Of a DNA stretch of 64,000 nucleotides, positions 1 through 12,442 are shown one piece after another (position 1 is the stretch's first letter; each line of letters begins with the position of its first letter). A program made the translations under genes and the position numbers. The DNA is from an uncultured Hoeflea sp. GTDB lineage: Bacteria; Pseudomonadota; Alphaproteobacteria; Rhizobiales; Rhizobiaceae. The notes under the pieces were generated by a model. The model was not told the origin of the DNA, made no database searches, and saw only the letters and a list, made by a program, of their open reading frames with translations. The DNA lies in NCBI RefSeq assembly GCF_947501405.1, contig NZ_CANMVK010000001.1, positions 558,001 through 622,000 of the forward strand. The letters run 5' to 3'.

Positions 1-1340
1 TGAAAACTCAATTCAACTATGACGGCGTTCCCGTGGAAGCACTTGAAGGCAGCATGCGTGACTTCCGGGTCCTGTCGGACACCGATCTGGTCAGCCGCTG
101 CGACGCGTTTTTCAACTGGCAAGAGACCCGCCGGCATTCCGGCACATGGCCGTTTTCGCGGTCAACCGAAACCGGTCCTGCAGCAAGCTGTGGCGTGCGC
201 GATGACCGTGGAAACCTGGTCAATGGCGTGAATTTCGCCTCGCAGGACTATCTGAGCCTTTCTTCGCACCCGGCCGTCGCAGACGCCGCCCGTGAGGCGA
301 TTGACGTATTCGGTGTGCATTCGGCCGGATCGCCGGCCTTGGTGGGCAATACCTCGACGTCGGTCGAGCTGGAGCGCCGCATCGCCGAATTTCTCAACAT
401 GAAGGAAGCGATCCTTTATCCCACCGGTTGGGCCGCGGGCTTCGGCGTTCTCAAGGGGCTGGTCCGCTCGCATGACTACATCGTCATGGACGCGCTGGCC
501 CATGCCTGCCTCCAGACCGGTGCGCAAGCCGCGACCCGCAATGTCTCGCTGTTCCGCCATCTCGACAATGAGCACTGCCGCGACCGTCTTGTCGCCATTC
601 GCAAGCGCGATCCCAAGGCCGGGATCATGATCGTCACCGAAGGTCTGTTCTCGATGGACAGCGATACGCCCGATATCGAAGGCCTGCAGGAACTGGCCCG
701 CGAGTTCGGCGCCACGCTAATGGTCGACGTGGCACATGACCTGGGCTGCCTGGGCGAGGATGGTACCGGCCATATCGGCATCCAGGACATGCTGGGCAAG
801 GTTGATCTGGTGATGGGCAGTTTCTCCAAGACCTTCGGTTCCAATGGCGGCTTCGTTGCCACCAACAGCCGTGCGGTTAAGGAATATCTGCGGTTTTACA
901 GCCCGTCCTGCACGTTTTCCAACTCATTGTCGCCGGTTCAGGTGGCCACCATCACCAAAGCGCTGGACATCGTCGAGTCCGATGAGGGCAAGCAACTGCG
1001 CCGGGCCTTGATGAACAACGTGGTCTCGCTTCGCGCCCAGATCCGTGCCCGTGGCATGGATGTCTATGGCGATCCGTCGGCCATTGTCGCGGTGAAAACC
1101 GGTGATGAGGCGCTGGCGCGGATGACCTCGCGGTCACTGCCGGAGCTGGGCTTGATCTCCAACCTGGTCGAGTATCCCGCCGTGGGCAAGGGCCAGGCGC
1201 GGTTCCGCCTGCAGGTGATGGCCGGGCACACCGCCCAGGAAATCACCGCTGCGGCTGACCGCATGGAAGCGGCCATGAAAGCAGGCCAGCAGGCGCTTGA
1301 AACGGTAACCGAACCGTTCGAGCAGCGTCTTGCGGGATAA
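1..1340 (+). CDS. Alpha-oxoamine synthase family PLP enzyme (5' end one base short)
   Basis: Fold-type I PLP enzyme of the KBL/BioF/serine-palmitoyltransferase family, which condenses an amino acid with an acyl-CoA and releases CO2. The frame is open from base 3. If the base before the window is A, the gene starts ATG-AAA and encodes about 446 residues; a GTG at 33 would skip a plausible N-terminus. The Schiff-base lysine sits in SFSKTFGSNGG (about residue 277). The cofactor-binding aspartate and histidine lie in VDVAHDLGCLGEDG, and the acyl-pocket region is VHSAGSPALVGNTST. The substrate is not shown by the sequence. CqsA/LqsA autoinducer synthases belong to this family, and the next two genes are a membrane histidine kinase and a c-di-GMP response regulator, which suggests a signal synthase. 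A sphingoid-base or BioF-like role remains possible. Confidence 0.8.
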   Translation, partial: KTQFNYDGVPVEALEGSMRDFRVLSDTDLVSRCDAFFNWQETRRHSGTWPFSRSTETGPAASCGVRDDRGNLVNGVNFASQDYLSLSSHPAVADAAREAIDVFGVHSAGSPALVGNTSTSVELERRIAEFLNMKEAILYPTGWAAGFGVLKGLVRSHDYIVMDALAHACLQTGAQAATRNVSLFRHLDNEHCRDRLVAIRKRDPKAGIMIVTEGLFSMDSDTPDIEGLQELAREFGATLMVDVAHDLGCLGEDGTGHIGIQDMLGKVDLVMGSFSKTFGSNGGFVATNSRAVKEYLRFYSPSCTFSNSLSPVQVATITKALDIVESDEGKQLRRALMNNVVSLRAQIRARGMDVYGDPSAIVAVKTGDEALARMTSRSLPELGLISNLVEYPAVGKGQARFRLQVMAGHTAQEITAAADRMEAAMKAGQQALETVTEPFEQRLAG

Positions 1341-1411
1341 TTGACGACATCGACGCCGGCGGGCCAACCGCCGGCGTCATTCATAACGCGAACCCGGCAC
1401 GGGGACTGCAC

Positions 1412-2857
1412 ATGCTAATGGACAACAAGATCATCAACTGGTTCATTCCGACCCGTTTTATCCACGGCAGGACCAACATTGAACTGGCGCGTGTGTTTGT
1501 CTTTACGCATCTTTTCGGTCCGGTGATCGCCCAGCCGATGGTGATCTATCTGTGGATGATCTCGCCCGAGGTCACCGCCCCGCTTGAAGTGATGATGATC
1601 GGCATCAACAGCTTCCTGCTGCTGCCCTTCGTGATGCGCTGGACCGGCAACATGACCCTTGCGGCGCTGTTGTCCTATCAGGGATTGGCGTCGATATCGC
1701 TGTTTGGCACGCTGTGTTATGGCGGTTTCAGCTCGCCGTTTCTGCCTTGGCTGATCGTCAGCCTGCTGTTGGGATTTTTCTATCTTTCGAAGAAGGCGCT
1801 GCTGGTGCTGGGGCTGTTTGCGGCCGATTTGGCGGTGTTCCTGATCGTCCTGGCCTGGAAAGGTCTTCCCAACACGGTTCCAATCGCAGATCTCAGGATC
1901 CTGGGCTGGCTGTCGATCGTCGCGGCCATGGTCTACATGTCGTGGATGGCGCTGTACTACGCGCGGATGATTGCGCTCAGAAGTGAGCTTCAAACCGAAG
2001 CCGAGCGCTTTCGCAACACGGAGCTTGAGCTCGAAAAAGCCCGCAATGTTGCTGAAAAGATCAGCGGTCAGCGCTCCATGTTTTTCGCCAAGATGAGCCA
2101 CGAGCTGCGCACGCCGCTCAATGTGATCATCGGCTACTCCGAGATTCTGCTTGAGGATTGCAACGAGAAGGACGGCATCCACCGTCAATGCGCCAAGGAT
2201 CTGTCGCGGATCAATTCGGCTGGCAAGCATCTTTTGTCGCTGGTGGCAGAGGTGCTGGATTCGGAAAAGATCGAAAAGGACGTCACCTCCGTCGAGACTT
2301 CCGAGTTTACGACTGGTGAGCTCTGCGACGATGTGGTCGCCAATGCCATGCCGCTGATTACCAAGAACGGCAACAAGCTGGTGCTGGATTGTCCGGTGCG
2401 TAACGAAGTGGTGCTGACGGACCGCACCAAAGTGCTGCAGATCCTGATCAACTTGCTCAGCAATGCGGGCAAGTTTACCAACAACGGCACTGTCACGCTG
2501 CATTTGAGCGTTGAGAAGGACACCGCCGACAGCCGGATCTATGCCTATGTGCGCGACACCGGTATTGGCATCGCACCGGCGGTGCTGCCGAAACTGTTCC
2601 AGGACTACATTCAGGCCGACGCTTCCATCTCCAACCGTTTTGGCGGCACCGGCATCGGTCTGGCAATCACTCGCAAGTTCAGTGTGCTGCTGGGCGGCGA
2701 AGTGCGGGTGACCAGCCGGCCGGGTGAGGGCTCCTGCTTTACGCTCGACATTCCGGCCCGGCTCACCACTGATGCGGTCCCATCCCAAATGCCCGGCACA
2801 CCCGCAACCGCAAGGCAAGGGCAGGTGTCTCAACCCGAAGCGGCAAAGGCTGCATGA
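1412..2857 (+). CDS. Six-helix membrane sensor histidine kinase
   Basis: Sensor kinase of 481 residues. Residues 25 to 195 hold about six hydrophobic segments with very short loops and no periplasmic sensor domain. A short coiled coil (about 195-225) follows, then HisKA with the phospho-acceptor H230 in SHELRTPLN, and HATPase_c with the N box (LINLLSNAGKFT), G1 (DTGIGI) and G2 (GGTGIGLAI). There is no C-terminal receiver, so the partner regulator should be separate; the next gene supplies a receiver domain. A GGGGA ribosome site lies seven bases before ATG 1412, and a second ATG follows at 1418. The polytopic sensor resembles the layout of CqsS/LqsS, which detect hydrophobic alpha-hydroxyketones within the membrane. 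The ligand assignment is inference from gene order. Confidence 0.87.
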   Translation: MLMDNKIINWFIPTRFIHGRTNIELARVFVFTHLFGPVIAQPMVIYLWMISPEVTAPLEVMMIGINSFLLLPFVMRWTGNMTLAALLSYQGLASISLFGTLCYGGFSSPFLPWLIVSLLLGFFYLSKKALLVLGLFAADLAVFLIVLAWKGLPNTVPIADLRILGWLSIVAAMVYMSWMALYYARMIALRSELQTEAERFRNTELELEKARNVAEKISGQRSMFFAKMSHELRTPLNVIIGYSEILLEDCNEKDGIHRQCAKDLSRINSAGKHLLSLVAEVLDSEKIEKDVTSVETSEFTTGELCDDVVANAMPLITKNGNKLVLDCPVRNEVVLTDRTKVLQILINLLSNAGKFTNNGTVTLHLSVEKDTADSRIYAYVRDTGIGIAPAVLPKLFQDYIQADASISNRFGGTGIGLAITRKFSVLLGGEVRVTSRPGEGSCFTLDIPARLTTDAVPSQMPGTPATARQGQVSQPEAAKAA

Positions 2858-2943
2858 CCTCGTGATAACAGTTTCGCAACGCTTACCCTGTAAAATCTAA
2901 GGTAACTCTGACTGATCCGCCTTGCGCGCCTGGAGTGAATGAA

Positions 2944-4806
2944 ATGACATATGCTACCAATCTAGCCGCCTTGGAACAGGAGGTTGATGCCGGGACAGGC
3001 ACGGCGCAGGCGCCTCAAGCCAACCCGCGCATTTTGGTCGTCGATGACGTTGCGGACAATCGCGATATCCTCACCCGGCGTCTTGTCCGGCGGGATTTCG
3101 ATGTCGATGAAGCGATTGGCGGCGAAGACGCTTTGGTCAAGATTGCGGAGAACCGCTATGATGTGGTGCTTCTCGATGTGATGATGCCGGATCTTAACGG
3201 CAACGAAGTGCTCAAGCGGGTGCGTGAGGTCCACGACAAGACCCAGCTTCCGGTCATCATGGTGACGGCGAAGAGCCAGAGCGAGGACGTGGTCGAGAGC
3301 ATCAATTTCGGCGCCAATGACTACATCACCAAACCGGTCGATTTCGCCGTGGCGCTGGCGCGCATCAACAATCAGGTCACGCTGAAACGCGAAGCCGAAC
3401 AGGAAGAGGCGCTCCGCAAGGATGTCGAGGAGCGCGCCGAAGAACTCAACGAGCAGGTCAAGGCGCAAAACGAAGCGCTGAGCGAGGAGGCCAGCAAGCG
3501 CCATGTTTCCGAAGAGAAGCTCCGCTTCATGGCCTATCACGATTCACTCACCGGTCTGCTGAACCGCCAGGGCTTCCGCGACACCTTGCAGGTGGCGCTG
3601 ACAGAGTTCGAAAGCGCGGAGACCGAGCCGGCGCTGATCTTTATCGATCTGAACAGTTTCAAGGCGGTCAATGACACCCATGGCCATGAGGTCGGCGACA
3701 ATCTGCTCGTCGAGGTCGCCAGCCGCCTAAGCGAGGTTTTCGGCCCCGATGTGCCGGTGGCGCGGCTTGGGGGCGATGAATTCGCAGCCGTTTACAAACA
3801 TGCCGATCAGCCGGCTTCGGCGATGAAGATGGCCAACATCATCGTTGAGAAAATGTCCGAGCCGTTCTTCATCGACCAGAAATCGCTGCGCATCGGCGCC
3901 AGTTGCGGTGTTGCCCGGGCGTCGGCTTTCAGCAATGATCTCAATGGTTTGATCAAAGCCGCCGATCTGGCCATGTACCACGCCAAGGGCAAGGGATCAG
4001 GCGGCGCGGCCTTGTTTGAATCGCGGATGCTCGAGGAGCAGGAAGACCGCCGCAAGCTCGAAACCGATCTGCGGCTGGCGTTGCAGCATTCCGAATTCGA
4101 TGTGTTTTACCAGCCGCTGGTGGACATGAAGACCCGCCAGGTGGTGTCGTTCGAGGCGCTTTTGCGGTGGCCGCACAAGACCCGCGGCATGATTTCGCCG
4201 GATATCTTCATTCCGCTGGCCGAAGAGATCGGACTGATCAATCAGCTCGGCGCCTGGGCGTTGCGCAAGGCCTGTGAAGAAGCAGCCAACTGGCCCGAGC
4301 ATATCGGTATTGCCGTCAATCTGTCGCCGATCCAGTTCAAAAGCTCAACGCTGCTGCCGACACTGGTCAATGCGCTGGCAGCTACCGGGCTTTCGCCCGA
4401 CCGGCTTGAGCTTGAAGTCACCGAATCCGCGCTGCTCGGCGCCGAAGCCAAGAACGTGAAGGTGCTCGAATCCATCCGCGAACTTGGCGTCAGGGTGTCG
4501 ATGGATGATTTTGGAACCGGCTACTCGTCTCTGGCGTATCTTCAGAATTTCGAATTCGACAAGATCAAGATCGACAAGCGCTTCATCCAGTGCCTGGAGA
4601 CCGACACCAGCAATTCCGCGATTGTCGACGCGATCATCAAGCTTGGAATCCAGATCGGCATCCGCACGACTGCCGAAGGCATCGAAACCGAGAGCCAGTA
4701 CAAATCCGTGGTTCTCAAGGGGTGTTCGGAAGGGCAGGGCTATTTGTTCAGCCGGCCGCTGACCGCCACCGATGCGCGCCTGGCAATTGAGACAGGATGC
4801 GCGTGA
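2944..4806 (+). CDS. Response regulator with GGDEF and EAL domains
   Basis: Cyclic-di-GMP turnover protein of 620 residues. It has a receiver domain (about 25-145; phospho-acceptor D78 in VVLLDVMMPD), a coiled coil (about 150-195), a GGDEF domain with an intact RLGGDEF motif (about 275), and an EAL domain starting at FEALLRW (about 404). The EAL catalytic set is complete (VNLSP, ELEVTES, DDFGTGYSS, KIDKRF, AEGIET, GQGYLFS), so phosphodiesterase activity is expected. The inhibitory RxxD site is absent before GGDEF. GGAG at 2932 is eight bases before ATG 2944, and the in-frame GTG at 2935 overlaps that site, so 2944 is preferred. It is probably the output partner of the upstream kinase, linking that pathway to c-di-GMP. 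Confidence 0.9.
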   Translation: MTYATNLAALEQEVDAGTGTAQAPQANPRILVVDDVADNRDILTRRLVRRDFDVDEAIGGEDALVKIAENRYDVVLLDVMMPDLNGNEVLKRVREVHDKTQLPVIMVTAKSQSEDVVESINFGANDYITKPVDFAVALARINNQVTLKREAEQEEALRKDVEERAEELNEQVKAQNEALSEEASKRHVSEEKLRFMAYHDSLTGLLNRQGFRDTLQVALTEFESAETEPALIFIDLNSFKAVNDTHGHEVGDNLLVEVASRLSEVFGPDVPVARLGGDEFAAVYKHADQPASAMKMANIIVEKMSEPFFIDQKSLRIGASCGVARASAFSNDLNGLIKAADLAMYHAKGKGSGGAALFESRMLEEQEDRRKLETDLRLALQHSEFDVFYQPLVDMKTRQVVSFEALLRWPHKTRGMISPDIFIPLAEEIGLINQLGAWALRKACEEAANWPEHIGIAVNLSPIQFKSSTLLPTLVNALAATGLSPDRLELEVTESALLGAEAKNVKVLESIRELGVRVSMDDFGTGYSSLAYLQNFEFDKIKIDKRFIQCLETDTSNSAIVDAIIKLGIQIGIRTTAEGIETESQYKSVVLKGCSEGQGYLFSRPLTATDARLAIETGCA

Positions 4807-8265: not shown

Positions 8266-9372
8266 ATGCGTAACACCCTGACACTTATCCTGCTTCTTGC
8301 GTTGGTCGCCTGCAAACAGGAGGAACAGGCCGCAGATCCACCCATACGCGGATTGAAAACCCATTTGATCTCCGAGGCCCAGCGAACGACGGTCCGGCGC
8401 TTCCCGGCCGTGCTTGAGCCGACGTCGCTCAATACCCTGTCATTTGAAGTTGCAGGAAAGCTCAATGCGGTGCTGCTCGAAGTTGGTCAACGCGTTGAGC
8501 AGGGTCAGACGCTCTTGGAATTGGATACGAAGTCATTCCAAATTCAGTTGGAAAATACCGAAGCTGGCGTTGTCGCGGCGCGCGCGGCTCGGGACAATGC
8601 CATCGACAATTTCAAACGTCAGGAACAGCTGCTCGAGCGCGGCACCGTCACGCGGGTTGCGCGCGATAACGCTGAAACTGAAGCTATCGCTGCCGAGGCC
8701 CGTTTGGAGCAAGCCGTCAAGGCTCGGGACAGCGCACGCGAGACACTTGAAAAGACAAGCATCACCGCACCAATGGACGGGATTATAAATGCTGTCGACG
8801 CAGTGAGCTTTGGAACGGTTTCACCTGGTACGCCCATGGTTTCGCTTTACTCACCCGACGAATTCGAAATCTCGTTCAGCGTCAATTTCGACACGGTATC
8901 TCAATTGGTCGTCGGGACGAAGGCGACCGTTAGACTTGCGGACTTGCCGTCAGTCAATCTTGCGGCGGTTGTCAGCGAACTGGGATCACGCGCAGACGCG
9001 GTATCGAGCTTTCCAGTTGTTCTCAAGCTGGAGGAAACCGATCCGATCCTGAAAGCGGGAATGGCGGTTGAGGCATCTATCGAGCTGCCAATCCCGGCAG
9101 AAAGCGGCTTCGCGTTGCCACTCAGCGCCATTCTCAAGACAGGTCAGCTTGGCATTCTGCCGGATCAACCCGAAGGTCCGGGCGAAGCACGCGTGTATGT
9201 TTATAATGCAACGACAGAGACCGTCGCTGAACGCGAAATCGTAATCCTAGGTGTCCGCGAAAACACCGCGATCGTCGTTGACGGGCTTGAGGCCGGCGAC
9301 CGGGTTGCTTCTGCGGGCGTGTCGTTCCTGAGGGATGGCATGCGGGTCAACTTGCTGAATGACGGCAAGTAA
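8266..9372 (+). CDS. RND efflux periplasmic adaptor (membrane-fusion lipoprotein)
   Basis: Adaptor of 368 residues that links an inner-membrane RND pump to an outer-membrane channel. It has a lipoprotein signal with lipobox LVAC (Cys16), a barrel-sandwich/biotinyl-like half (about 60-85, FEVAGKLNAVLLEVGQRVEQG), an alpha-helical hairpin (about 95-165, rich in Ala, Glu and Arg), the second sandwich half (ITAPMDGII), and beta-barrel and membrane-proximal domains to the end. It is the first gene of the operon and overlaps the pump gene by 14 bases. No outer-membrane factor is encoded nearby, so a TolC-type channel from elsewhere is presumably used. It is likely under TetR control. Confidence 0.93.
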   Translation: MRNTLTLILLLALVACKQEEQAADPPIRGLKTHLISEAQRTTVRRFPAVLEPTSLNTLSFEVAGKLNAVLLEVGQRVEQGQTLLELDTKSFQIQLENTEAGVVAARAARDNAIDNFKRQEQLLERGTVTRVARDNAETEAIAAEARLEQAVKARDSARETLEKTSITAPMDGIINAVDAVSFGTVSPGTPMVSLYSPDEFEISFSVNFDTVSQLVVGTKATVRLADLPSVNLAAVVSELGSRADAVSSFPVVLKLEETDPILKAGMAVEASIELPIPAESGFALPLSAILKTGQLGILPDQPEGPGEARVYVYNATTETVAEREIVILGVRENTAIVVDGLEAGDRVASAGVSFLRDGMRVNLLNDGK

Positions 9373-12300
9373 CATGGAAAGGCTCACCCGCTTTGGATTG
9401 GAAAAATCCCGCCTGACCGTCCTGGTGATGATTGGTTTGCTGCTGATCGGCGCGACGACCTATCTCAACATTCCCAAACGTGAGAACCCTGCCATTACCG
9501 TGCGCACCGCCATCGTTGCCGCACAGTTTCCTGGCATGGCGCCAGAGCGCGTCGAAGACCTCATCGCAGTGCCGTTGGAACGTGCAGCTCGCGAAATTGG
9601 CGAGGTTGAAGACATTGAAACACGCATCCTGACCGGCGTCGCAGTGTTGAAGCTGCACATCTATGATGCTGTGCCGGAAGATCAGCTTGTGCGCGTCTTT
9701 CAGGACGTCCGCAACAAGATGGGCGACAGTGTTGGCGAGCTTCCCGAGGGCACACTCGGACCGTCCGTCAACACCGATTTTGGCGATGTCGCCATCGCCA
9801 CGATTGCCGTGACCGGTGAAGGCTTTTCGTATGATGAGATTTTTGATGCTGCCGACGCATTGCGCAATGGCCTCTATACGGTCGACGGAATCACAAAGGT
9901 GTCGATTTATGGCAAGCAGGAAGAACGGATATGGCTGGAAATTGACACCCGCCGCCTGGCTGCCATTGGCGTGCAGCTTGAACGCGTATTGGGGGATCTT
10001 CAGGCCCAGAACGTGATCTTGCCAGCGGGTGAATTGAACTCGAAGGGCACCAATATCACCTTGGAGGCCAATGGCGATCTGCGATCCATCGAAGAGATCG
10101 AGGAAGTCTTGACCAAGGTTCCGGGCCTGAGCGGTTTTGTGCGTCTCAAAGACATCCTGACCGTGCGTCGCGGTTTCGTTGATCCGCCTGAAAAACCCGT
10201 CTTCTTCAACGGCCGACCTGCGCTGATGGTCAGCGTCGAAATGGCAAATGACAAAGACATCCAGCAGGTCGGTCGGGTGCTTGAGGCGCGGATCTCGGAG
10301 CTCGAAGGGCGACAACCGATTGGCATGTCCTTCAATATTTCGACATTCCAGGAAACCAATGTGACAGTTGCCATCAACGGCGCCCTGTCAAATGTGGGTC
10401 AGACCTTCCTGGTGGTTCTTGCGGTCATGCTGGTGTTTCTGGGGATGCGGCCCGCCTTCATCATTGCCAGCATCGTGCCTTTCACTGTGATGTTTGCCTT
10501 GTTTGTCATGGTCAATCTTGGGATCGATATCCAGCAGGTCTCGGTCGCTGCAGTCATCATCTCGCTTGGGCTTCTTGTGGACAACGGACTTGTCGTTGTC
10601 GAGGACATCCAGACTAAGGTGAACAAAGGCATGACGGCCTATGACGCCGCAATCGCGTCTTGCGGTCAGTTCTTTGTCCCTCTGGCTGTCGCCTCGCTAA
10701 CCACCATTGCGGCATTCATCCCTATGTTGATCCTCGATGGCACCGAGGGCCAGTTTGCTTACGCAATGGGAGCCGTTGTTGCGTCGATGCTGACGGGATC
10801 GTGGCTTGTCGCTCATTACATTCTTCCCTTTCTCGCCGCGCGGCTCGTCAAGCCAACAAAGAAAGAGGTGGAAACGGAAGGCTGGATCGTGCGCGGCTAT
10901 GGCAGCGTTACACGTTCGCTCCTACCTTGGGGCATTCCGATCATCGTCGTCTCCTACGGCCTTGTTATCGGGTCTGCGACGGTGTTTTCGCAGTTGAAAG
11001 CCGAACTGTTCCCACTGAGCGAACGGTCAGACTTTTTGGTCTATCTCGATATGCCAAAAGGGACTGCAATTGAAGAAACCTTGGCCCAGGCTCAGATGGT
11101 CGAGGCTTGGCTGCGTGATGCGGACGCTAATCCTGAAGTCCGCGACACGACAATTTTTGTGGGCGACGGTGGTCCGCGTTTCTACCTTGGTCTTGATCCC
11201 GCAGAGACAGACCCAGCCAGCGCCTTCTTTGTTGTAAACACGACAAGCCCCGAAGACGCCGTCATCATGGAAAAAAGAGCGCGGCGTTATCTGGCGGAGA
11301 ATTTTCCCGCTGCCCGCGCGCGGCTGACCCGGCTTTCCATGGGCGGCAACGAGTCCGGAATCGTCGAAATCCAGATCATTGGCCCAGATGGCGATGTTCT
11401 GATGGCGGCTGCCGATCAGGTGAAAGCAGGCTTTGCTGAGGTGCCGAACCTTGTGCGCAACGAGGATGATTGGGGCCACAAGACCGTCAAGATCGTCATT
11501 GACGTTGCCCAGGACAAAGCGCGCGAACTCGGCATCACGTCGCAGGAAATCTCCAGCGTGATGGATACGTTCTTTAACGGTTCAACTTATTCCACCTTCC
11601 GGGAGGGCACGGAGGCGATCCCCATCGTTGCGCGTGCGCAAGGCAATTTCCGCGATAGCCTGGAAGATCTTGCGAACCTCTCGGTCCCGACCAGCGGGGG
11701 TCTGATTTCCCTCAATCAAGTCGCGAATTTCCGGCCCACCCTGGAGTTCTCACAAATACGGCGTGAAAACCAGGAGCGGATGATCACCATTTCGGGCAAA
11801 AGCGCGACCCTGGGTGCTGCCCAAGTCGAGGCTTTGCTGGCACCAACACTTGCCGGACTTGGTCTTGGACCGGAGTACAGAATCATCATTGGCGGAGAAA
11901 GCGAACAAGGCGCAGAAATTCAGAGCAAGCTGGCCGCCGGCATTCCATTTGCCTTGATCGTGATGTTGGCGGCCCTGACCTTCCAGTTCAACTCGACCAG
12001 GCGGGTGTTGCTGACTTTCATGACAATTCCGCTGATCGTCGTCGGAGCGCCGCTCGCACTTTCCCTGACCGGCCGCCCGCTCTCCTTCTTCGCTATCCTT
12101 GGGCTCTTGTCGCTGATGGGGATCATCATCAACAACGCGATCGTGCTGATCGACCAGATCGACATCGAAAGAAAAACACACGATCTGGACGACGCTATCG
12201 TGATCGCCGCCAAGAAGCGTGTCACGCCGGTGATGTTGACTTCTTTGACTACGGTATTGGGGCTTGTGCCCATGGCCCTAAACGGGGGCGCATTGTTCGA

Positions 12301-12442
12301 GCCCATGGCGACCTTGATGGTCGGTGGCTTGCTTTTGGCTTCGCCGCTGACGCTGTTCTTTGTCCCACCAGCATACCGCCTCTTCTTCAGACGTTCCGCA
12401 GAGAAACACTCTGCGCTCCAGCCACTTGAGGGAAGCACATGA
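9359..12442 (+). CDS. RND-family efflux transporter permease
   Basis: Inner-membrane proton-driven pump of 1027 residues, the usual length for AcrB/MexB-like and related RND proteins. There is one N-terminal transmembrane helix (about 15-35), a large periplasmic loop, a block of helices around 340-540 containing the conserved GLLVDNGLVVVEDI segment, a second loop, and C-terminal helices (about 860-1015, with GLLSLMGIIINNAIVLIDQ). Family sequences with this N-terminus are often annotated as multidrug or AcrB-like, but substrates are not predictable. It overlaps the adaptor gene; a second ATG at 9374, just after the adaptor stop, is an alternative start. The downstream deiodinase-like gene begins inside its stop codon. 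Confidence 0.94.
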   Translation: MTASNMERLTRFGLEKSRLTVLVMIGLLLIGATTYLNIPKRENPAITVRTAIVAAQFPGMAPERVEDLIAVPLERAAREIGEVEDIETRILTGVAVLKLHIYDAVPEDQLVRVFQDVRNKMGDSVGELPEGTLGPSVNTDFGDVAIATIAVTGEGFSYDEIFDAADALRNGLYTVDGITKVSIYGKQEERIWLEIDTRRLAAIGVQLERVLGDLQAQNVILPAGELNSKGTNITLEANGDLRSIEEIEEVLTKVPGLSGFVRLKDILTVRRGFVDPPEKPVFFNGRPALMVSVEMANDKDIQQVGRVLEARISELEGRQPIGMSFNISTFQETNVTVAINGALSNVGQTFLVVLAVMLVFLGMRPAFIIASIVPFTVMFALFVMVNLGIDIQQVSVAAVIISLGLLVDNGLVVVEDIQTKVNKGMTAYDAAIASCGQFFVPLAVASLTTIAAFIPMLILDGTEGQFAYAMGAVVASMLTGSWLVAHYILPFLAARLVKPTKKEVETEGWIVRGYGSVTRSLLPWGIPIIVVSYGLVIGSATVFSQLKAELFPLSERSDFLVYLDMPKGTAIEETLAQAQMVEAWLRDADANPEVRDTTIFVGDGGPRFYLGLDPAETDPASAFFVVNTTSPEDAVIMEKRARRYLAENFPAARARLTRLSMGGNESGIVEIQIIGPDGDVLMAAADQVKAGFAEVPNLVRNEDDWGHKTVKIVIDVAQDKARELGITSQEISSVMDTFFNGSTYSTFREGTEAIPIVARAQGNFRDSLEDLANLSVPTSGGLISLNQVANFRPTLEFSQIRRENQERMITISGKSATLGAAQVEALLAPTLAGLGLGPEYRIIIGGESEQGAEIQSKLAAGIPFALIVMLAALTFQFNSTRRVLLTFMTIPLIVVGAPLALSLTGRPLSFFAILGLLSLMGIIINNAIVLIDQIDIERKTHDLDDAIVIAAKKRVTPVMLTSLTTVLGLVPMALNGGALFEPMATLMVGGLLLASPLTLFFVPPAYRLFFRRSAEKHSALQPLEGST

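Follow-up and report, generated by a model that had tools for sequence, protein, structure and literature searches.

The locus that opens the window, by which we mean the whole 64,000-nucleotide stretch of DNA analyzed here, probably encodes a cell-to-cell signalling module in which an alpha-oxoamine synthase and two six-helix receptor kinases act on c-di-GMP. What we observed directly is the gene set with its conserved neighbourhood, the joint occurrence of synthase and sensor where they are unlinked, a sensor swapped onto GGDEF-EAL, and members of this sensor family paired with true CqsA. We read the module as one that may work like CqsA/CqsS, with neither enzyme nor sensor belonging to those families by the tests that we ran. 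As its family suggests, the synthase would join an amino acid to an acyl-CoA, yielding a lipophilic alpha-aminoketone that might then become a hydroxyketone. The signal would leave and enter through the envelope, possibly with the help of an outer-membrane barrel, and the two paralogous kinases would bind it within the membrane and phosphorylate receivers. Among these would be the receiver-GGDEF-EAL protein, which to judge from its domains would alter c-di-GMP. We see an even chance for the wider proposition that such loci form an undescribed alphaproteobacterial class of quorum sensing, in which a new synthase family makes a lipophilic aminoketone, two paralogous receptors of a new family that also partners CqsA set c-di-GMP through a kinase or a direct GGDEF-EAL output, and barrels pass the signal.

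Genes and gene order

The initial annotation had named an oxoamine synthase, a histidine kinase and a receiver-GGDEF-EAL protein in this sequence, and the open reading frames and Pfam confirmed the three families and their order: Aminotran_1_2 in the synthase (E 7.8e-43), HisKA and HATPase_c in the kinase, and Response_reg, GGDEF and EAL in the third frame (Table 1). The synthase's start codon is an ATG of which the first base falls just outside the window, one nucleotide upstream of position 1. In the receiver-GGDEF-EAL protein the motifs LLDVMMPD, GGDEF, EALLRW and DDFGTG are all intact. A second kinase lies directly upstream of the window, so that the genes run kinase 1 - synthase - kinase 2 - receiver-GGDEF-EAL. 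Kinase 1 is a paralog of the window's kinase (kinase 2), also with six helices and 33% identical to it across 463 aa. Kinases 2 group as one clade apart from kinases 1, which argues that the pair is old. The core of the earlier proposal, a synthase-receptor pair feeding c-di-GMP, is well supported by comparative evidence, with the amendment that the synthase has a pair of kinases rather than a single one.

Table 1. Features of the locus within and upstream of the window
Feature	Position	Strand	Basis or remark
Alpha-oxoamine synthase, unnamed clade, 446 aa	1..1340	+	window ORF 3-1340, open at the window's edge
Histidine kinase 2, 481 aa: six-helix sensor + HisKA-HATPase_c	1412..2857	+	ORF, Pfam, AlphaFold2
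Six-helix sensor domain of kinase 2, no Pfam family	1412..2026	+	AlphaFold2, sensor alignment, Pfam scan
Receiver-GGDEF-EAL protein, 623 aa	2935..4806	+	ORF, Pfam
Kinase 1, same design as window kinase	L001:10082-11650, probable Met start 10208		upstream, outside window
Outer-membrane barrel gene, PF13505	L001:9130-9903	minus	before kinase 1

The synthase and its relatives

The enzyme is a complete PLP alpha-oxoamine synthase that has kept the catalytic residues Lys277, Asp243, His246, His168 and Arg403. In a tree that took in 24 rows of the family (CqsA loci L106 and L112 and SPT loci L165, L167 and L168 omitted) it belongs to a clade of its own, with a support of 100/100 and a stem of 2.09, outside CqsA, SPT, BioF, KBL and HemA. 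This clade branches on the side of BioF, KBL and HemA (95/83), and the CqsA clade, likewise supported at 100/100, is separate from it. Note that neither a sister relationship with CqsA (p-AU 0.33) nor a single clade with SPT (p-AU 0.25) was rejected. Membership in CqsA/LqsA was dismissed on a score of 176.6 bits against the NCBI cut-off of 428 (NF005526) and on the separate tree clade, membership in SPT on 243.5 against 500, 238.5 against 640 and 183.7 against 670 bits and on a position outside the SPT clade, and membership in BioF or KBL on 276.6 against 426 and 250.3 against 460 bits, both under the curated cut-off. The grouping inside SPT or BioF with pathway genes that the initial annotation had named as counter-evidence was not what we found, as the synthase forms its own clade and an SPT-type ACP gene is lacking.

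It is most improbable, and was already disfavoured, that the synthase is a conventional KBL, BioF or SPT whose neighbours are there by accident. Such a reading can draw on BioF as the top NCBIfam score, KBL as the nearest fold, the tree side just described and the finding that the only other relative in the same genome at E <= 0.001 groups with HemA. Set against this are scores below every curated cut-off, the fully supported separate clade, residues of the type of Q82, which is specific to the clade while the reference rows have Asn, or Tyr in three of the 14 SPT rows (counted after removal of the truncated or broken rows L035, L091, L036, L023 and L100), and the conserved company of the sensor. 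No bio or tdh cluster was recognized by eye at the locus or among recurring neighbours. On scores, tree and neighbours we rejected a housekeeping SPT, BioF, KBL or HemA identity.

SPT and a cysteate fatty-acyltransferase are nonetheless relatives of the synthase, and this kinship is consistent with an enzyme that makes a membrane or envelope lipid, with kinases that monitor the lipid state of the membrane and no exchange between cells. The recurrence of outer-membrane barrels would fit this as well: 28 barrel ORFs of the PF13505 type and 35 of the OmpW type occur in 1.20 Mb of 80 loci vs none in 30 further stretches totalling 281 kb, and the barrel control included five module stretches with neither type. 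The same recurrence also counts for the signalling reading. We regard the lipid explanation, to which the mycobacteria discussed below also lend support, as unlikely. SPT loci resemble the module in fold and catalytic residues, but the SPT enzymes form a separate clade, and a profile search found a dedicated ACP gene in 16 of 18 SPT loci vs one of 91 synthase loci, some of them short, where it lay about 7.6 kb off. The CqsA loci are in this respect like the module, with a dedicated ACP found in none of 14. Except for an AMP-ligase in 8 of the 91 loci, five of these in Mycobacterium, no lipid genes were recognized among the recurring neighbours, and the sensor pairs with CqsA as well, which counts against the lipid explanation. 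It speaks against the signalling reading, in turn, that the 40 largest neighbour clusters, mostly judged by eye, held no recurring reductase family; the single reductase recognized among them, a short-chain dehydrogenase (Pfam), occurs in 3 of 91 loci. One cluster of 12 loci was discarded as a gene, being an antisense frame of the OmpW gene in the two loci inspected.

Linkage and co-occurrence of synthase and sensor

Among 297 genomes of the order, the synthase was present in 11 (E <= 1e-90) and the sensor in eight (E <= 1e-70), all of them among these 11. The corresponding Fisher p of 1.2e-13 is not corrected for relatedness, and its table leaves out three weak sensor matches (1e-16 to 1e-18) in other genomes. 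The other three synthase genomes (G072, G226 and G238) showed no sensor even at E <= 1e-15; theirs are the three lowest-scoring synthases, with 46-50% identity, and one has an internal stop. Across the class the synthase is sporadic, with 3 of 240 genomes where CqsA is found in four, and its spread covers Hyphomicrobiales, Sphingomonadales, Caulobacterales, Rhodobacterales and Rhodospirillales.

We analyzed as named loci the best 80 of 316 synthase loci, and among these best 80, 60 have enough flank (6 kb upstream, 5 kb downstream). A linked sensor is found in 43 of the 60, two linked sensors in 41 and a GGDEF-EAL-type ORF in 36. The linkage of synthase and sensor exceeds chance. The initial annotation had held that a kinase not conserved next to the synthase would speak against a module; the kinase is conserved there. 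Eight of the 17 loci without a linked sensor are from alphaproteobacteria, and all eight of those genomes have strong sensors elsewhere. One of them, Sphingomonas parva, also has a second synthase copy with a linked sensor (L056), and in two Methylobacterium that we inspected both kinases and the receiver-GGDEF-EAL protein cluster together, away from the synthase. No sensor was found in eight of eight Mycobacterium genomes and one Pseudomonas with the synthase; its product can therefore matter without these receptors.

The six-helix sensor and its partners

The N-terminus of the window's kinase was modelled by AlphaFold2 as six long helices (mean pLDDT 90.5), and the protein has the layout of CqsS and LqsS, with six membrane helices, no periplasmic domain and a C-terminal kinase. 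Residues P37, G104, S108, P109 and W113 are invariant across 76 sensor sequences. In these 76, Pfam returned no convincing family (Imm_superinfect in three, best E 0.0005; MASE7 in three, best E 0.002), and a fold search of the PDB with the sensor gave no match at E <= 0.001. Homology to the CqsS sensor was not supported (hhalign Prob 1%, E 0.051), and a CqsS profile had no match in G000 at E <= 1e-8. The likeness to CqsA/CqsS drawn at the outset survives as a six-helix kinase without periplasmic domain adjoining a synthase, but does not extend to the enzyme, given its CqsA score, nor to detectable homology of the sensors. When 14 rows were aligned jointly, the sole invariant column was a Trp, W113 in the window's kinase, and the hhalign register agrees. 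The Trp aligned to it may be W104 of CqsS in the V. cholerae numbering, which is only a lead. According to a review, W104 and S107 of CqsS read the C3 group (PMC3376566).

In G608 and G773 a kinase with the window type of sensor adjoins CqsA. Both enzymes are genuine, at 489 and 461 bits vs the cut-off given above, so that these loci have the sensor family in common with the module and differ from it in the synthase. Their sensors share 23-32% identity with those module sensors that were compared, and G773 yielded no CqsS-type receptor at E <= 1e-8. Two further CqsA genes (L194 and L195) adjoin neither receptor type. Two synthase types with a common receptor family would allow receptor specificity to be compared across both.

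Descriptions of hydroxyketone signalling concern Vibrio, Legionella and Janthinobacterium. The review cited above also names Ralstonia, Nitrococcus, Burkholderia and Polaromonas, and the word Alphaproteobacteria is absent from its text (PMC3376566). As a precedent for the module, another paper states that cqsA, lqsA and jqsA always adjoin their kinase (PMC3566124). In CqsA/CqsS, LqsA/LqsS and JqsA/JqsS, as in the module, a PLP oxoamine synthase adjoins a six-helix kinase without periplasmic domain, but the module has a synthase of another clade, a sensor without detectable homology and, as features of its own, two kinases, a receiver-GGDEF-EAL output and outer-membrane barrels. If it does signal, it would be a second hydroxyketone-like system that has a receptor family of its own, uses two receptors and reaches c-di-GMP by a short route.

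The membrane domain of DivJ-like six-helix PAS kinases, which have an extra PAS and no synthase seen alongside, is distantly similar to the module sensor, and by this kinship the sensor can serve other inputs. The kinases might then sense redox state, fatty acids or another metabolite, and the synthase, which might make an antimicrobial aminoketone, would be under the operon's control as its output. We think this less likely still than the lipid explanation, since in one run the DivJ-like kinases scored 59-65 bits vs 136-151 for the CqsA-partner group and at least 242 for six module sensors, and since all 11 sampled genomes with the sensor at E <= 1e-30 have either this synthase (10) or CqsA (G608). 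Note that the DivJ label itself has only partial support, at 209 and 228 bits for a cut-off of 1000. A receptor role of the sensor in the proposed module is also consistent with G224, in which it is fused directly to GGDEF-EAL in a protein of 684 aa that adjoins the synthase; such a fusion would unite signal receptor and second-messenger enzyme in one protein.

Gene order and proposed signalling

The module is best read as a synthase-receptor signalling system with c-di-GMP output, and what we observed directly in its favor are the genes themselves, their company, their co-occurrence, domain swaps and a pairing of the sensor with CqsA. Product class, secretion, binding, phosphotransfer and the change in c-di-GMP we infer: the synthase product would be secreted, the sensor kinases would bind it, phosphotransfer would follow and the c-di-GMP level would be changed as output. 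No publication on such a module was found in the open-licence literature, judged by titles and abstract openings.

The window comprises bases 558001-622000 of contig 1 in a genome of 4.45 Mb and starts one base past the A of the synthase ATG. As the synthase, kinase 2 and receiver-GGDEF-EAL genes share one strand with intergenic gaps of 71 and 77 bases, they may constitute one operon. All kinase, receiver, GGDEF and EAL motifs tested were found in the window's proteins, and kinase 1 retains SHELRTPLN, DTGCGI and GGTG.

Features of the module and related loci (L001, the window with flank: position minus 12000 gives the window position)
Feature	Coordinates	Strand	Remark
PF13505 outer-membrane barrel	L001:9130-9903	-	ahead of kinase 1, outside window
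Kinase 1	L001:10082-11650		upstream of synthase; same design as kinase 2, 33% identity
Synthase	window 1-1340	+	consecutive with the next two
Kinase 2	window 1412-2857	+
Receiver-GGDEF-EAL		+
HlyD-type fusion protein, AcrB-type RND pump	window 8266-12442		downstream of module (Pfam)
Hybrid kinase of G773	L185:5244-8015		window-type sensor

The HlyD/AcrB-type pump may offer an export route; AcrB-type genes recur at 10 of 91 synthase loci. Near the module, 28 PF13505-type and 35 OmpW-type ORFs were counted (80 loci, 1.20 Mb) and none in the control (30 stretches, 281 kb), with both reference barrels drawn from module loci and the control stretches shorter on average and from other genomes, two SPT stretches lying outside the class. 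Five of the 30 (73 kb) are module stretches of the sampled genomes G174, G272, G773 and G782, and since they contain no such barrel, it is not always near the module. OmpW proteins are channels for hydrophobic molecules. For the Legionella signal LAI-1, delivery by outer-membrane vesicles is reported (PMC10692735).

An oxoamine synthase outside the curated families

Matches to 14 NCBIfam models at E <= 0.001 were obtained for the synthase, none of them above the curated cut-off (bits versus cut-off: BioF 276.6/426, KBL 250.3/460, SPT 243.5/500, CqsA 176.6/428). In a 63-row tree, the 24 sampled synthases form a single clade (support 100/100, stem 2.09) that adjoins the BioF/KBL/HemA side (95/83), with separate groups for the 12 CqsA rows (100/100), 15 SPT-side rows (100/99) and 12 BioF/KBL/HemA-side rows (98/96). 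Joining the synthase in one clade with CqsA (p-AU 0.33) or with SPT (p-AU 0.25) was not rejected. Its one other relative in the same genome at E <= 0.001 groups with HemA.

Lys277, Asp243, His246, His168, Ser218 and Arg403, whose catalytic roles we take to be those in KBL and SPT, are conserved in 99% or more of 87 family members and likewise in the reference families. Specific to the synthase family are, among others, Q82, an asparagine in all KBL, BioF, HemA and CqsA rows and in 11 of the 14 SPT rows, G147, an asparagine in every reference row bar one, and furthermore E391 and N282. The closest solved folds to the AlphaFold2 model (pLDDT 89.7) are KBL and SPT. With its conserved residues, family-specific letters and this fold, the protein thus looks like a functional oxoamine synthase with an altered pocket. 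PMC9386255 reports that in Rhodobacteria the genes for SPT are found together with those for ACP and acyl-CoA synthetase; the association with ACP seen here at SPT loci agrees with this, whereas the module synthase departs from the pattern.

The sensor, its partners and its outputs

The predicted structure of the sensor shows six long helices without a periplasmic domain (mean pLDDT 90.5). It yielded no matching solved fold at E <= 0.001, no convincing Pfam family and no match when its profile was compared with that of the CqsS sensor. By these tests the sensor is a separate receptor family, echoed distantly by DivJ-like kinases. Three loci (L150, L151, L152) encode DivJ-resembling six-helix PAS histidine kinases with a distant version of the domain.

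In genomes G608 and G773, a kinase with a window-type sensor adjoins a CqsA above the NCBI cut-off, so that sensors of this family can be paired with a genuine hydroxyketone synthase. A search of G773 (96% complete) at E <= 1e-8 turned up no CqsS-type receptor; this genome also encodes the module synthase, accompanied by a sensor kinase of its own, and a third window-type sensor, in a 923-aa hybrid kinase, that is sister to its CqsA-partner sensor in the sensor tree. G608 has two CqsA genes (L196, L183), one by a CqsS-type and the other by a window-type kinase. Among five CqsA loci of the class sample (fetched 16 kb), two had a window-type sensor, one a CqsS-type and two neither, and in a 349-genome phylum draw the sensor was CqsS-type at 14 of 14 CqsA loci and window-type at none. 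Judged from gene neighborhood, the CqsA pairing at two loci is the best available hint at the sensor's ligand class.

The architectures beside the synthase include two sensor-HK kinases with a receiver-GGDEF-EAL protein; a sensor-HK-receiver kinase with a single receiver plus PAS-GGDEF-EAL (G202 and G179, by Pfam, the G179 kinase by blast); and GGDEF-EAL fused straight to the sensor (G224). Sensor and synthase are the constant pair among them. These swaps agree with PMC4821796, which reports that another output enzyme can be driven by the six-helix CqsS anchor. Kinases 2 group as a single clade in the sensor tree (100/99, one of its rows being very long), outside which kinases 1 occupy several branches, a separation which argues that the two-receptor design is old.

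Company of synthase and sensor across genomes

Within the order, 11 of 297 genomes carry the synthase (E <= 1e-90). The sensor profile, searched over 297 genomes whose listed handles match those of the synthase search, gave strong matches (E <= 1e-70) in eight, every one a synthase carrier, and weak ones (1e-16 to 1e-18) in three others; in three of the 11 carriers the six-helix profile detected no sensor. In the class sample (240 genomes), all three genomes with the synthase at E <= 1e-80 had sensors at E <= 1e-30, and G608 was the sole further genome with a sensor, without this synthase.

The named-genome loci are the best 80 of 316 synthase relatives, 60 of them with enough flank. Of these 60, 43 had a linked sensor, 41 two sensors, 38 a barrel gene and 36 a GGDEF-EAL-type ORF, called by similarity and length with no receiver demanded; counting short contigs, the sensor was present at 59 of 80. 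As L042/G174, L048/G272 and L047/G266 were judged to be the same genomes, named-locus and drawn-genome counts are not independent.

The 17 loci without a linked sensor belong to Mycobacterium (8), Methylobacterium (4), Minwuia (2), a Beijerinckiaceae MAG and two others, a second copy in Sphingomonas parva, which has an additional linked copy at L056, and a disrupted one in Pseudomonas sp. H9. Searches of their genomes revealed strong sensors elsewhere in 8/8 alphaproteobacteria and none in Mycobacterium (0/8) or Pseudomonas (0/1). In both Methylobacterium examined, the two kinases and the receiver-GGDEF-EAL gene lie together on a different contig from the synthase, and in G782 a sensor kinase lies far from it. 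Sensorless synthase copies, mycobacterial and divergent, count against the signalling reading, as does the fact that no recurring reductase was recognised among the synthase neighbors.

The mycobacterial synthase looks like a transferred enzyme put to separate use. The eight copies (L084, L086, L088, L089, L092, L093, L095, L096) show 61-64% identity in genomes without a detected sensor, and in three a patatin-like gene adjoins. At L023, from a genome of the order, and L100, from Pseudomonas sp. H9, the synthase is split into two ORFs. On a 1.58 Mb plasmid record of Pseudorhodobacter turbinis typed as mobilizable (L171), barrel, synthase, kinase 2 and receiver genes are consecutive.
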